Virus record (IMG/VR): IMGVR_UViG_3300020463_000085
Span: 1-30,285 of that record
Length of the DNA: 30,285 bases
Source of the DNA: a virus
Reading direction: 5' to 3' (one strand)
Shown here: positions 78 to 5,548 of the stretch, in pieces
Layout of the letters: each line of letters starts with the position of its first letter
Numbering within the stretch: position 1 is the first letter of the stretch
Notes under the pieces: model-generated
What the model was told of the DNA's origin: nothing
Database searches by the model: none
Seen by the model: the letters and a program-made list of their open reading frames with translations, nothing else
Made by a program: the position numbers and the translations under genes

Positions 78-208
78 GGCGTCCTTGCTGATGCTTGTGA
101 AGAGGCAAAGGGTTTTATGACAGTTTGCTTGTCAGGGTGGTGTTTTTAAGGGTAGGAATGTATTGCTAACTTTTTTCAGGCACCTTACAGGCGATTCTGA
201 GAGGGCAT

Positions 209-523
209 TTAGTGGCTACATTGGCGTTGATATTCCATATCGTCTATATGTACCTTGACGTCATGTTCTTCTAGTAAATCTGTATATGCTTGAGCGTCCT
301 TGCTGAACTCTTCGAGCTTTTCAAAGATTTCACGTGGTGAGTACTTGAGGTGAGCATCTTCTCCGAATGCTAATTCGCACACGTTTATGATGAACCATTT
401 GTTTAGCAATGAATGCTTTGGTAAACTACCTTCTTTTTCTAAGTTTTCAGTTGCATTTTTGTATGTCATAACTTCCATGTATGAAGTCCTTGGATCTGGT
501 GGTGTTGGGTATTGGAAGCTCAT
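209..523 (-). CDS. Small protein of unknown function (104 aa)
   Basis: The start ATG at 523-521 overlaps the TGA of the preceding gene (ATGA), a typical translational coupling junction, which supports this start. The product is soluble and acidic, with Pro-rich residues near the N-terminus (YPTPPDPRTSY) and a probable helical segment with several charged residues (PREIFEKLEEFSKDAQAY) toward the middle and C-terminal half. It ends in a His/Cys-containing tail. One CAAGGACG octamer lies inside it and encodes part of Ser-Lys-Asp-Ala. I do not recognise the family. It is the last intact gene of a four-gene coupled run that starts at 1163. Confidence 0.75.
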   Translation of the reverse strand: MSFQYPTPPDPRTSYMEVMTYKNATENLEKEGSLPKHSLLNKWFIINVCELAFGEDAHLKYSPREIFEKLEEFSKDAQAYTDLLEEHDVKVHIDDMEYQRQCSH

Positions 524-756
524 AAGATTGGTTCTCCTTCAGGTGATAGTTGTACTGCGTATTCAATTACTGGTACTCGTTTGATAGTGTCTACTTTCTG
601 TGCCTTGATAAAATAATCGTCTTCAATTCTTTCATTACTGTTACTGCCGTAACCTACGTGTTGACTAATTAAAGATTTGGCTTCGTCCTCGCTTTTGGCT
701 TCAAGGCGGTAGTAGTCAATGTGTGTTTGCTTAACTCGTACTTCGTAATTGGTCAT
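520..756 (-). CDS. Small protein of unknown function (78 aa)
   Basis: The start at 756 overlaps the stop of the upstream gene as TAATG. It is preceded by the strongest Shine-Dalgarno in this block, AGGAGG nine bases upstream at about 773-768. The product begins with MTNYEVRVKQTHIDYYRLEA and has alternating charged and hydrophobic residues that suggest a small mixed alpha/beta fold. No membrane segment or signal peptide is present. Its stop overlaps the start of the next gene (ATGA). Family not recognised. The coupling and strong ribosome site make it very likely real. Confidence 0.78.
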   Translation of the reverse strand: MTNYEVRVKQTHIDYYRLEAKSEDEAKSLISQHVGYGSNSNERIEDDYFIKAQKVDTIKRVPVIEYAVQLSPEGEPIL

Positions 757-920
757 TACTTAGTCCTCCTTTTGATAGCGTTTCTTAGTTCTTTGATATC
801 CAAGTTCTCTAGTGAGATCTCGCCATCGTCAGTGATAATGTGCATACATGACATACCTTCGTGGTAGTAAACGTGTGCGTCCTTGAGGTAGTAAGTGTGT
901 GATACTTGTGGTTGTAACAT
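756..920 (-). CDS. Small protein of unknown function (54 aa)
   Basis: ATG at 920-918, 54 codons, stop TAA at 758-756 sharing a base with the next start. The protein (MLQPQVSHTYYLKDAHVYYH...) is rich in His and Tyr in its first half and charged in its second, ending with a basic tail (NAIKRRTK). The codons for that tail supply the AGGAGG ribosome site used by the next gene, a sign that the two are co-expressed. An overlapping frame at 809-1003 is less likely because it breaks this coupled arrangement. One CAAGGACG octamer encodes Lys-Asp. Function unknown. Confidence 0.7.
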   Translation of the reverse strand: MLQPQVSHTYYLKDAHVYYHEGMSCMHIITDDGEISLENLDIKELRNAIKRRTK

Positions 921-938
921 GATTGGGTGGGTGATTGG

Positions 939-1163
939 TTAATAGGATGGGTCGCCGTCTGGCTCTGGTAATGTGTACTCAACATGAGGTATTGTTCCAA
1001 CAATTATTGATTCGTCAGGGAACTCCACGTCCTTGCGTCTGCATGCTTGGTCTAGTATTTCCCAGATTGCTTGCATGTCGTCTTGTTCGAGTAGATGACC
1101 ATATGTCTTAATTAAAATATGTTGTCCCGTCCTTGCGTCCATGCTTGTGATGATTGTGTCCAT
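939..1163 (-). CDS. Small protein of unknown function (74 aa)
   Basis: The frame starts at ATG 1163-1161 with a CAAGGACG octamer 8 bases upstream of the ATG, whose AAGGA could act as a ribosome site. Two further octamers lie inside the gene. The product (MDTIITSMDARTGQHILIKT...) is acidic and soluble, with an acidic proline-containing C-terminus (EYTLPEPDGDPSY). Its first codons are part of the TGATTGTG repeat cluster at 1142-1201, so the N-terminal coding sequence is constrained by a DNA-level repeat. It lies just downstream of a terminator-like hairpin at 1203-1242. Family not recognised. Confidence 0.7.
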   Translation of the reverse strand: MDTIITSMDARTGQHILIKTYGHLLEQDDMQAIWEILDQACRRKDVEFPDESIIVGTIPHVEYTLPEPDGDPSY

Positions 1164-1201
1164 GATTGTGGCGTCCTTGATTGTGAATGATTGTGATTGT
1201 G
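1142..1201. repeat. Iteron-like cluster of TGATTGTG beside AT-rich DNA
   Basis: On the plus strand TGATTGTG occurs at 1151-1158, 1163-1170, 1178-1185, 1188-1195 and 1194-1201, with the variant TGCTTGTG at 1142-1149. That is six direct copies in 60 bases. The cluster overlaps the start codon of the 74-residue gene and one CGTCCTTG octamer. It is followed by a long AT-rich tract interrupted by a hairpin (1203-1292). Clustered direct repeats beside AT-rich DNA resemble plasmid and phage origin iterons, or a multi-site binding array. Replication function is inference only. Confidence 0.55.
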
Positions 1202-1202
1202 G

Positions 1203-1242
1203 AAAAAATAAAAAGGGTTAAACCCCAGTCATAGACTGAGGT
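1203..1242 (-). terminator. Intrinsic terminator-like hairpin
   Basis: In minus-strand orientation ACCTCAGTC (1242-1234), a three-base loop TAT and GACTGGGGT (1230-1222) form a 9-bp stem with one G-U pair. It is followed by TTAACCC and then T-rich sequence (TTTTTATTTTTT, 1214-1203). The T-tract is displaced by about seven bases, so strength is uncertain. It lies after the 50-residue gene (stop at 1290) and before the 74-residue gene, a reasonable place to end the transcript from the 231-residue gene. Confidence 0.5.
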
Positions 1243-1289
1243 CTCGGGATTATTTAATTATATTATTTATTTATAACTTAACTACTAAT

Positions 1290-1442
1290 TTACTTTTGAT
1301 ACTCAACCCTTGTTGATGTATAACCTGCTTCAGAGTGTATAACTTTATAACCCTTACTTATTAAGTTGGCATGTGTTAAGTCATTGATATGACTAACATC
1401 TGTGTGGTCGTCCTTGTAGATGACATAAATGTTTTGATGCAT
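1290..1442 (-). CDS. Small protein of unknown function (50 aa)
   Basis: ATG at 1442-1440 lies two bases past the stop codon of the 231-residue gene, and the frame ends with TAA at 1292-1290. The product starts MHQNIYVIYKDDHTDVSHIN and ends STRVEYQK, soluble and mixed charge. One CAAGGACG octamer encodes Lys-Asp. The tight spacing to the upstream gene, the natural end before the AT-rich stretch and the downstream terminator-like hairpin support a real gene. Family not recognised. Confidence 0.65.
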   Translation of the reverse strand: MHQNIYVIYKDDHTDVSHINDLTHANLISKGYKVIHSEAGYTSTRVEYQK

Positions 1443-1444
1443 AA

Positions 1445-2140
1445 TTAATTAGGTACGATAGTGGATAGATTAGCATTAACTTTCTTAGCGCGGCTACCAT
1501 GTGATAGGAAAGCGACGACGCATTTACGGTTAGACTGTTGGCAAATCCCGCAGTCCTTGCAGTTAGTGTCAGAGGTTTGAGCTGGGCAAACTAGAACACG
1601 TGTTCCGGCTGGCGTCCTTGCTGGTACTGGCTTAGAGTTATCAACAACACACACGGCAGGAACACCGGCGGCTATCGCGTCGTCTGCTTGCTGCATGCTT
1701 TCGCATGAGGCGTTGACGGTGAAGCCGTTAGTGTTGGCGTACTTGATAGCCTCGAGGTTATGGGTATGAAGTTCATGATGGGTGTAGGTATAACCCTTGG
1801 CACCACTGGATTTGTTAGCATCAACCAATGACTTAAGTAAGTCAAGCCTGATGTACTCACGTCCTTGGTGCTTGGTGTAACCCCAGTCACCCGCTTGGTT
1901 GTGACGCCATAGTTGACCCTTACTTAACTTACTAACGTAAGTTGTAAGCTCATCCCAAGTACCACCACGTAGACCGTTGCTCACTTTTTTCCAGTGCCAA
2001 GAGACTGGACCGGACTTGGCGTAACAGCCGCCGGACTGTAAGTGTGGGCATGATGTTGGGCATGATGATTCCTCGGTAGTGGTGACAGGCATTGCACCCG
2101 TCTTGGCATTAGCTGATTTCTTTGTAATGTGGACTAGCAT
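1445..2140 (-). CDS. Cys-rich protein of a phage/bacterial family of unknown function (DUF7227-like)
   Basis: The 231-residue protein has Cys27, Cys31 and Cys39 near the N-terminus (CPTSCPHLQSGGCYAKSGP) and a Cys194-x2-Cys197-x2-Cys200 cluster plus Cys207 near the C-terminus. Further conserved-looking motifs are LWRHNQAGD (78-85), GYTYTHHE (116-123), ANTNGFTVNASCES (135-148) and RVLVCPAQT. This layout matches, from memory, a family spread through phages and bacteria (DUF7227-like) with no known function. The cysteines suggest a metal or iron-sulphur site, which is inference. There is no signal peptide. It heads the 1445-1290 gene pair and has no clear Shine-Dalgarno. Three CAAGGACG copies or variants lie inside, in different frames. 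Confidence 0.7.
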   Translation of the reverse strand: MLVHITKKSANAKTGAMPVTTTEESSCPTSCPHLQSGGCYAKSGPVSWHWKKVSNGLRGGTWDELTTYVSKLSKGQLWRHNQAGDWGYTKHQGREYIRLDLLKSLVDANKSSGAKGYTYTHHELHTHNLEAIKYANTNGFTVNASCESMQQADDAIAAGVPAVCVVDNSKPVPARTPAGTRVLVCPAQTSDTNCKDCGICQQSNRKCVVAFLSHGSRAKKVNANLSTIVPN

Positions 2141-2194
2141 AAGTTGGGTGCGAAAGTGGACAGAATAACTAGACTACGTAGTAGTTAGTTAAGT

Positions 2195-2235
2195 GCGTCC
2201 TTGCGGAGTTGAACCGCAAGTGAAAACCCAGACGC
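2195..2235 (-). other. tRNA acceptor/T-arm-like minihelix
   Basis: In minus orientation GCGTCT (2235-2230) pairs with GGACGC (2200-2195), with one G-U pair. Nested inside, TTGCGG (2219-2214) pairs with CCGCAA (2206-2201) around the loop TTCAACT. The loop and its closing G-C pair fit the tRNA T-loop consensus TTCRANY exactly. The two stems can stack into a 12-bp helix with no spacer on the 3' side. Only GGGTTTTCAC separates them on the 5' side, so D and anticodon arms are absent and this is not a normal tRNA gene. The 3' strand contains the last CAAGGACG octamer. It lies just after the KTSC-like gene. Confidence 0.5.
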
Positions 2236-2237
2236 TG

Positions 2238-2253
2238 CCTTGCTTTAGCAAGG
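2238..2253 (-). terminator. Hairpin across a stop codon
   Basis: CCTTGCT (2238-2244) and AGCAAGG (2247-2253) form a 7-bp perfect inverted repeat with a two-base centre. It overlaps the TAA stop of the KTSC-like gene at 2247-2245. There is no T-tract, so it is more likely an mRNA 3' end-protecting or processing structure than a full terminator. It is followed at once by the T-arm-like minihelix. Confidence 0.35.
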
Positions 2254-2556
2254 TAGAGCGGCACTCGCTGAGTAGCTAGCACCTAAGAACTGGTAGCAAA
2301 GCTTACCAGTAGCGATAGTGTTACCTCTTAGGTAACCAAGCTCTTGAGTTGCAACCTTGGAAAGGTTGTTGTAAACCCAGAACCCAAGTGACATGTTGGG
2401 CTGTAGTAAAAGATTTACAATCTTTAAGCGGCTAACGTTTGAGTACTTGTACTCATAGCCATTGACTCTGAAGCGAGTGACTACAGTACCAGCGATAGGA
2501 TCAACCTTGATAGCCTCGATAGCTTCGCTAGTTCTAGGGTTTGGAATGATGAACAT
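2245..2556 (-). CDS. KTSC-like domain protein (103 aa)
   Basis: Residues about 13-66 follow the pattern of the small KTSC domain: an Ile/Val strand (IEAIKVD), then a strand with Phe and an N-G-x-x-Y-x-Y-x-x-V turn (FRVNGYEYKYSNVSRLKI), then a Ser-Gly-Phe-x-Asn segment (MSLGFWVYNN). The KTSC family is a small domain often found in phages and linked by genome context to lysyl-tRNA synthetase; its role here is not shown. The C-terminus is hydrophobic and ends AALPC. The start at 2556 lies 36 bases after a very large stem-loop and behind a possible promoter, so this gene probably leads the left block. Expression may be controlled by that leader. Confidence 0.6.
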   Translation of the reverse strand: MFIIPNPRTSEAIEAIKVDPIAGTVVTRFRVNGYEYKYSNVSRLKIVNLLLQPNMSLGFWVYNNLSKVATQELGYLRGNTIATGKLCYQFLGASYSASAALPC

Positions 2557-2756: not shown

Positions 2757-3052
2757 TTGGTATGGCAACAGATCGCTTGACTTGCAGCTCTCAAGCTCGC
2801 GATCAAAACAATCCACCTGCCCACGCGTCGCGAATGTTTAGCAACGCGCGATATGTTCTCAACCTTGGCACCTCGTCGGTGATGGAGCGAGCGAAGCGAG
2901 CGGAACTCCTTGCTATCACTGCATTCTCTGTGGACTATCAATCCGCAGTCCTCGCGCATGTCGCGATAGTCTAGCTTCGCGCGATCAATTAACGCGCAGC
3001 CGCCTGCGTTAGAAAGAGCGACCCCCCATGGGGGCTCCTGCCGCCGTCGACT
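2757..3052. other. GC-rich, CpG-rich island with no convincing gene
   Basis: By my count 2761-3060 is 167 of 300 G or C (56%), far above the AT-rich surroundings. It is packed with TCGCGA (2797-2802, 2828-2833, 2961-2966), ACGCGT (2823-2828) and many GCGCG and GCGATC half-words, and has a reiterated GCGAGCGAAGCGAGCG-type stretch near 2887-2901. These words recall cyanobacterial HIP1 (GCGATCGC), though no exact HIP1 is present. Open frames on both strands are short, basic and unlike proteins. It may be host-derived DNA, an origin or packaging-end segment, or a structured RNA. Confidence 0.6.
3016..3037. terminator. Strong GC hairpin at the edge of the GC island
   Basis: CCCCC (3023-3027), AT and GGGGG (3030-3034) form a perfect 12-base palindrome. 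GAGC (3016-3019) and GCTC (3034-3037) can extend it across a small bulge. In minus orientation it follows the tiny membrane-protein gene (stop at 3080) by about 43 bases and is trailed by a short pyrimidine stretch, so it may end that transcript. No long T-tract is present. Confidence 0.35.
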
Positions 3053-3817: not shown

Positions 3818-5548
3818 CTAAACCCAGTTATTGTATGCTTTCTTACCTGCGTTACCTCTAGCCTCTCTACGCTGCTCTACATCGAGTCCTAGGACTAGGT
3901 GATTAGTAGCTGCTTGAGGGTCATCTATGAATTGTTCTAGTATGTCGTTCCACTCTTCTTGCTTCTTTAACTTGATCTGTTCCCTAGCTGAGATAGCTAG
4001 TGCATCTATGTAGTATTTAACTCCCTGTGCTAAACAGTCGAGTCTATCGTCGTGTTTGACAGCGTATTTCTGTCTACACATCCGACTCATTTGGTAGAAC
4101 AGCATGTATAGAAGCCTTTCTTCGGGTGCTGCCTCTCTGTTTGAGTTATAGTCCCATTCGATGAGAGAACGATTGACAACAAGACGGTGTTGATTAAGAA
4201 CAGGCTCAAGGGTATCAATAATACGATCTTCTTTTCTGACATTAGCTCTTACTTCTTCTACGAGTATTCGTTGTTTAGTTTGTTGTAGATGCTTTTTGAA
4301 TAGCTCAGCTACGATACCGTCACCGAAGTTAGATTCGATAACCATTGTATTTACGTTGTACTTCTCACACCCTTTGAGTATGTCTAGAAGTGTATTGTCT
4401 GAGTATCCGTCTCTGTATGCACGCATCTCGTGTACATATAAGAAACCATTCTTTTGTGATATGTAGCAGGCTGCGGTTTCGTCAGCACCTCTACCTGAAG
4501 GGTCAACACTGCATATGGTTTCTTGGTATTTAGTCCATTCACCCTGCATTTGCATAGGTGAGTAGAAGTAGTCTCCCGGTAAACCGACTGTAGGTAAGTC
4601 TTTTAGACAGTTCCTAGGGTCAGAGCACCATATAACGTTGTCTGGAGCTTCTTTAGGGTTAACACTTGCTACTACAAGGTCAGCCATCTTAAGTGGAAAC
4701 TTCTCTGCGTCAGACAGACTTGTATCAAGCATGAACTGCAACATAAAGTTGCTACGTCCCATGGACGCTTCTCTTTCAACTAGATCATCTTCTGTGAATC
4801 TGTCGTCAGTAGGAGTCCAAGGCGTTACACCTTTATCTATGTCTTCTTGTAGCTGTGGAGCTATCAGTCCTTCGTAAGGTGTATTGTTTCTTGGGTATCT
4901 GGCGGTCCAAACAAACGGTCTGTAATTCCTAGCTGCCAATTTACGATAAATAGTAAAAGTAGTCTGAGGAGTCCCGAGATACATAATACGGCTATCGTCT
5001 TTCGGCGTAAGGATTGATTCCGCTTCTGTGCAAAGTTGAAGAAGTTTTTCACGCATCAACTCCGTCATGCTGTTCCCGGGAACTTCGATGTCGTCTAGGA
5101 TCATTAGATCCGCTCTGCTTCCCGTTAACTGACCAGTAATACCAACACTCTTCACGGACGGAGCCTGATGAGGAGCGCAAGCGACGTCGAAGGAAATTCT
5201 TGACCATCTCCCGTCGTCGCTCTTTGGTTGTAAGTGATTTAGCCATGGTGTTTCGATAATTAGTTTCTGTAGGAAGATACTCATGTTGTCTGCTCTCTCT
5301 TTAGAGGCAGAAATTATCATTATTTTCTTTTCCGGGTCATTAAATAGAGTCCAAAGAACAAAAGCACCAGTAATCCAGCTCTTGCCAACTCCCCGAAACG
5401 CCTGTATCTGTAGTCGCTTGGGACCACTCTGCAAGTAATCTGCAATTGCATATTGTGCCCTTGTTGGAGAAGGGAGATCAAGCTGGTCCCATAATGCTTG
5501 CAGAAACAGCTTGAAATCGCCCTGTAAGGACGTTAAAACGTCTTTCAT
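3818..5548 (-). CDS. terL: Terminase large subunit (DNA packaging ATPase/nuclease)
   Basis: The 576-residue length is close to T7 gp19 (586). The ATPase domain has a Walker A-like loop FRGVGKS (51-57) and Walker B LMILDDIE (148-155), with a coupling-motif-like YLGTPQT segment at about 190-196. The C-terminal RNase H-fold nuclease shows acidic residues in SVDPSGRG (Asp349), VIESNFGD (Glu405) and KHDDRLD (Asp500/501), the usual metal-binding set. It docks on the portal, pumps DNA into the prohead and cuts concatemers. It is the last gene of the late module, 16 bases after the 272-residue gene. No obvious Shine-Dalgarno precedes the start. Confidence 0.96.
   Translation of the reverse strand: MKDVLTSLQGDFKLFLQALWDQLDLPSPTRAQYAIADYLQSGPKRLQIQAFRGVGKSWITGAFVLWTLFNDPEKKIMIISASKERADNMSIFLQKLIIETPWLNHLQPKSDDGRWSRISFDVACAPHQAPSVKSVGITGQLTGSRADLMILDDIEVPGNSMTELMREKLLQLCTEAESILTPKDDSRIMYLGTPQTTFTIYRKLAARNYRPFVWTARYPRNNTPYEGLIAPQLQEDIDKGVTPWTPTDDRFTEDDLVEREASMGRSNFMLQFMLDTSLSDAEKFPLKMADLVVASVNPKEAPDNVIWCSDPRNCLKDLPTVGLPGDYFYSPMQMQGEWTKYQETICSVDPSGRGADETAACYISQKNGFLYVHEMRAYRDGYSDNTLLDILKGCEKYNVNTMVIESNFGDGIVAELFKKHLQQTKQRILVEEVRANVRKEDRIIDTLEPVLNQHRLVVNRSLIEWDYNSNREAAPEERLLYMLFYQMSRMCRQKYAVKHDDRLDCLAQGVKYYIDALAISAREQIKLKKQEEWNDILEQFIDDPQAATNHLVLGLDVEQRREARGNAGKKAYNNWV

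Follow-up and report, generated by a model that had tools for sequence, protein, structure and literature searches.

Described short words and the cyanophage motif

The CsrA/RsmE site has the consensus (A/U)CANGGANG(U/A), while Chi, KOPS and DNA uptake words are short, asymmetric and present in high copy number. The sites of the T4 RegB endoribonuclease are GGAG/U in early mRNAs (PMC3014915), and ATCTGT is the class II pause word of T7 RNA polymerase, with ATCTGTT as the terminator (PMC9624206). The motif described here, CANGGACG, resembles each of these in part. Like the CsrA/RsmE sites, it is a sense-strand motif containing CANGGANG, in which the third base is likewise free, but the base after GGA is nearly always C in the cyanophage motif, whose copies are scattered along genes instead of sitting at ribosome sites. 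The GGA hairpin loop with a pairing stem is also missing: no hairpin was found at the motif, neither pairing nor flank covariation exceeded that of shuffles, and there was no extra accessibility or preference for unpaired RNA. Searches of the phage records and of 12 host genomes gave no CsrA protein above the cut-off, so the motif is not a member of the CsrA/RsmE system. RegB sites resemble CANGGACG in being short, linear sense-strand words of early mRNAs built around GGA, with a possible role in the early-to-late switch, whereas the cyanophage motif is longer, lies mostly within genes, occurs in tandem copies and shows no Shine-Dalgarno bias. Similarly, Chi, KOPS and uptake words are short asymmetric words of many copies whose density is kept as positions turn over; in contrast to them, CANGGACG is limited to one transcribed block, has no excess in host DNA and varies between phages of the same host strain. 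The T7 class II terminator ATCTGTT is likewise a sense-strand word tied to phage transcription (PMC9624206), but it is purged from all but one place, whereas CANGGACG builds up in early genes and is neutral in the rest of the genome.

For comparison, 26 cyanopodovirus genomes were rotated to the terminase end. In these genomes, ATCTGT is the most depleted sense hexamer (25 observed vs. 304 expected); exactly one sense copy is present in 23 of the 26, two in one, and none in P-SSP7 and G001. The single sense copy always lies 0.7–2.5 kb after terminase, while antisense copies number 19–50, and the phages seem to purge the pause word of their own polymerase everywhere except at the genome end. 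Meanwhile, the palindromic hexamers GCATGC, ACGCGT, TTCGAA, TGCGCA and TCCGGA are strongly depleted in the same 26 genomes, which fits the expected avoidance of restriction enzymes.

Copies of the word in the window

The window, that is, the whole stretch of DNA analysed, is the 30,285-base virus record IMGVR_UViG_3300020463_000085, which is linear in IMG/VR and is therefore probably a genome fragment. Its gene content identifies the source as a T7-like cyanophage. All main window genes lie on the minus strand, which is thus the sense strand; the structural genes come after the terminase, with the psbA end, as judged by sequence, at the far right. Positions 1–2560, which follow the terminase, are where the early genes start; the gene for the phage RNA polymerase lies outside the window. 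The features are as follows:

80–87, minus strand: CAAGGACG, directly before the ATG at 77
295–302, minus strand: CAAGGACG, within ORF 209–523
485–492, minus strand: core variant CAAGGACT
878–885, minus strand: CAAGGACG, within ORF 756–920
1028–1035, minus strand: CAAGGACG, within ORF 939–1163
1128–1143, minus strand: tandem CATGGACG-CAAGGACG, written CATGGACGCAAGGACG, with 8-nt spacing (CATGGACG at 1136–1143, CAAGGACG at 1128–1135)
1157–1164, minus strand: core variant CATGGACA, which includes the ATG at 1163
1172–1179, minus strand: CAAGGACG, in the leader upstream of the ATG at 1163
1409–1416, minus strand: CAAGGACG, within ORF 1290–1442
1552–1559, minus strand: core variant CAAGGACT, within ORF 1445–2140
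1613–1620, minus strand: CAAGGACG, within ORF 1445–2140, in a frame different from that of the copy at 1860
1860–1867, minus strand: CAAGGACG, within ORF 1445–2140
2196–2203, minus strand: CAAGGACG, between ORF 2245–2556 and ORF 1445–2140
2245–2556, minus strand: first early gene, a KTSC-fold protein of 103 aa, candidate reader by association
2768–2773, minus strand: ATCTGT, the only sense-strand copy in the window, taken as a landmark for the genome end or concatemer junction
3818–5548, minus strand: terminase large subunit, 91.5% identity to P-GSP1

Ten exact copies of CAAGGACG are found at 80–2203, all on the minus (coding) strand, and none elsewhere in the 30,285 bases on either strand, while 100 dinucleotide shuffles gave a mean of 0.33 copies per window and a maximum of 2. 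The earlier note on this DNA had claimed exactly this, ten same-orientation copies in one block and none in the other 28 kb, and had described copies in all frames, intergenic copies and irregular spacing, all of which hold. The octamer is one spelling of the degenerate motif [A/G/T]CANGGACG[C/T]A, and the block holds 14 sense copies of its core, CANGGAC, vs. 3 sense and 3 antisense copies in the other 28 kb. A CRISPR array, which the earlier note had set aside, is excluded because the window copies lack regular repeat spacing. Helical or fixed spacing is also ruled out, and the sole spacing signal is an excess of the 8-nt tandem, which is found again in P-GSP1, L038, NATL1A-7, P-SSP2, L063 and L086.

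Early enrichment across the clade and its controls

The confinement to one block holds within the window, but the block is not a local peculiarity, as it is the start of a clade-wide early pattern. The motif clade, one large clade of T7-like marine cyanophages, comprises 20 of the 26 genomes, and the sister clade the other six, namely P-SSP10, 9515-10a, P60, Syn5, SS120-1 and S-CBP2. Among 18 genomes of the window's clade used for 7-mer enrichment, CAAGGAC is the top early-enriched 7-mer (log10 p of −50) and is present in 18 of 18, with 98 copies at 1.2–7 kb vs. 47 in the remaining ~38 kb when summed over these genomes; CATGGAC is the next most early-enriched. A substitution scan left the third base free (A53 C7 G15 T31), while most other substitutions lowered the enrichment. 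In a non-redundant count over 64 early stretches, IMG/VR contigs included, and ~1.2 million bases of other, mostly late sequence, CANGGACG occurs 176 times in early sense, 4 times in early antisense and 16 times in late or other sense orientation, whereas the six sister-clade genomes have next to no copies. The density of the core CANGGAC is 1.9–2.0 per kb from ~1.2 kb after terminase to the RNA polymerase gene, ~1 per kb in that gene, where protein constraint may lower it, 0.5–0.7 for 2 kb after it and 0.11–0.32 beyond. A similar density elsewhere, or a background rate in related phages, would have spoken against a signal; the related genomes were checked, and the word is not as dense elsewhere and lies above background in the early region. 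The T7 genome has no early word comparable to CANGGACG, and no earlier description of the motif was found in the literature on cyanophage early motifs or on CANGGA in phages. The observation itself is secure, which cannot be said of the mechanism.

An artefact of codon usage or composition, for instance a preference for one Lys-Asp codon pair, would explain why the Lys-Asp phase holds more copies than any other (146 of the 255 in coding sequence), but the other two phases hold 64 and 45 copies, and another 64 lie outside called genes. Synonymous-codon shuffles within genes, which keep the protein and the codon usage, gave 26.6 ± 3.8 early coding copies where 94 are observed, while late coding copies (8) matched their shuffles (8.1). 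Early regions hold 112 copies vs. 6.6–10.5 expected under Markov order 2 and 3, and Markov expectation was matched in sampled Prochlorococcus and Synechococcus RCC307 genes, in the T4-like cyanophage S-PM2, in late regions and in the sister clade. The early antisense count is also at Markov expectation, so the word has built up on the sense strand without being removed from the antisense strand. With synonymous shuffles, Markov expectation and the lack of antisense excess all against it, the artefact is highly improbable; coding and composition effects are excluded by four controls, which bears out the proposal of a frame-independent nucleic-acid signal. Between relatives at 62–85% identity, 46% of aligned sites retain the motif, compared with 0–22% for five control words, the aligned pairs being not independent of each other. 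Since about half of the sites are lost between relatives, conservation seems to apply to density more than to the precise placement of copies.

The host genomes, in which the earlier note had proposed to look for the word, carry the motif at Markov expectation in the sampled Prochlorococcus and RCC307; an apparent depletion in Prochlorococcus relative to the reversed pattern was considered as a host word and rejected, as it vanished under Markov expectation. A Chi or recombination word is disfavoured by this host count and by the differences between phages of one host strain. In Synechococcus CB0101, for instance, early copies number 11 in S-CBP3, 8 in S-CBP4 and 1 in S-CBP1, so the host does not decide whether the motif is present. 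A role as a ribosome site, suggested by copies before two starts, does not survive the count either, as 5 of 319 sites lie 5–11 nt before starts vs. 4.6 at random.

Other early elements were observed in these genomes. A second sense-only early word, CACAATCA, is present in the motif clade (1145–1200 in the window), with 25 sense and 1 antisense early copies and 10 sense late copies, often directly before ATG; the sister clade has a weaker signal, CACCATCA, in a similar position (23 sense and 0 antisense early, 23 late), and both are possibly start-codon context. In addition, a tRNA-like element without a D-arm lies ~3.13 kb after the terminase end in P-SSP2 (L010) and is also found in P-SSP3, L038, L063 and L070. 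It consists of an acceptor stem, an 8-nt anticodon-type loop ACTCCGAA and a T-arm, and its stems vary by paired changes (GGACG/CGTCC, GGACA/TGTCC); ARAGORN made no call for it in L010, L038, L063 and L070, and Rfam gave no match in L038, L063 and L070. Meanwhile, phrog_9569 is a conserved early gene upstream of the RNA polymerase gene, present in 20 of 20 motif-clade genomes and in 2 of the 6 others.

Reading of the mark and candidate readers

The strand bias is the main guide to how the motif may be read. A site read in duplex DNA would not need to point one way throughout the genes in which it is scattered, and a plain duplex silencer or protection site, one of the options of the earlier note, is at odds with 176 sense vs. 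4 antisense copies; its option of an mRNA-level site is the one best supported by this bias, while no positive evidence was obtained for a packaging or replication signal. We therefore lean, by a modest margin over doubt, towards CANGGACG being a linear cis mark on the early sense strand that is read by a factor of the phage lineage. By analogy with T7, the early block would be transcribed by the host polymerase. The mark would be read as a single strand, most likely in early mRNA, or in the non-template strand by a factor that travels with the polymerase, and the reader would come from the phage lineage and not from the host, because the three CB0101 phages differ so widely in copy number. 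Such a reader would bind early transcripts at many dispersed and sometimes tandem sites, and binding may set their stability, their translation or their removal at the early-to-late switch. Roles that would fit such recognition are protection, control of translation, removal at a set time and control of elongation.

One specific form of removal is a RegB-like mark, in which an endoribonuclease of phage or host would cleave early mRNAs at GGAC and clear them after the early phase. This is consistent with a linear motif built on GGA that is confined to the sense strand of early genes and lies within genes too, and T4 offers a precedent (PMC3014915). However, the lack of ribosome-site bias, a motif longer than RegB's GGAG with a different base after GGA, the absence of a nuclease match among nine window genes searched and the tandem copies, which cutting does not need, make this explanation unlikely.

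In these genomes the early-transcribed DNA is also the DNA injected first, and an RNA mark and a strand-specific DNA mark are therefore indistinguishable by position. A polar DNA signal of the left genome arm, serving entry, left-arm replication or recombination, would follow the genome and not transcription; the zone does begin at the genome end and reach roughly to where T7 has its primary origin, and selection keeps up density while individual sites come and go. Against it, the right arm shows no mirror excess (late sense 15 and antisense 16, with 18–22 expected), the word is unused by host DNA and by a phage of another type on these hosts, and phages of one host strain differ. We hold this signal to be even less probable than the RegB-like mark.

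Elongation control, by contrast with these, would involve a phage factor that reads the word in nascent RNA or the non-template strand and keeps the host polymerase processive, or paused, over the early operon. The sense-only placement agrees with it, as does a density that peaks in the stretch bounded by the genome end and the phage RNA polymerase gene and fades within 2 kb after that gene, but known antitermination systems manage with one or few sites. The phage early regulator pMarR (PSSP7_011) is known to bind the host polymerase. Its candidacy as reader was rejected, since the true-pMarR profile does not track the motif: the gene is absent in the motif phages P-GSP1 (16 copies), S-CBP4, S-SBP1 and S-RIP2 and present in S-CBP1, SS120-1 and S-CBP2. 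CANGGAC was also not found in the rne region of MED4 relatives. An elongation mark thus has about the same small likelihood as cutting by a RegB-like nuclease.

To return to the preferred reading, a mark on the early sense strand read by a phage-lineage factor, the product of the first early gene (2245–2556) is the leading candidate reader of CANGGACG by association, although the odds are clearly against it. Its family has a strongly conserved core, and 11 of 19 family members match PF13619 (KTSC) at E up to 0.1, the best being 2.2e-4, with the two scores examined below the gathering cut-off. The predicted model (pLDDT 81) has as best Foldseek hits the KTSC structures 4rgi (probability 0.99) and 7x8c (probability 0.97), at weak E-values of 0.037 and 0.13; Pfam and the predicted fold both relate the family to the KTSC domain. 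In the clade, motif density is 2.30 per kb with the KTSC gene vs. 1.04 without it (p of 4e-4, ignoring kinship), and the gene is present in all 14 complete genomes with at least 5 copies except S28C3. The association has exceptions in both directions: S28C3, L072 and L086 have a sense-biased motif and lack the gene, and P-SSP10 and 9515-10a of the sister clade have the gene and lack the motif. In one survey (PMC9503650), KTSC is classed as DNA-binding. The gene at 1445–2140 was rejected as reader, as it is found in just a few motif phages; it encodes a DUF7227 protein with two cysteine clusters, whose relatives are in many Pseudomonas myophages and a few cyanophages. As a tentative extension, CANGGACG may be a self tag for RNA by which an early protein, possibly the KTSC-fold one, tells early phage mRNA from host and late mRNA.

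The hosts of T7-like cyanophages are among the most abundant photosynthetic cells on Earth, and to our knowledge little is known of how these phages handle their early messages. The findings point to CANGGACG as an undescribed tag read on early viral messages within the infected cell, counted as undescribed because the searched literature held no matching description and the motif did not fall within the known systems compared. If its reader is a known type of RNA-binding regulator, the newness of the system shrinks. The mark is directly testable, since it is short, can be removed with synonymous codons, differs between cultured phages of the same host strain and has a small candidate reader. 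A dense, frame-independent mark on early sense strands would give phage genomes a regulatory layer of a new kind.
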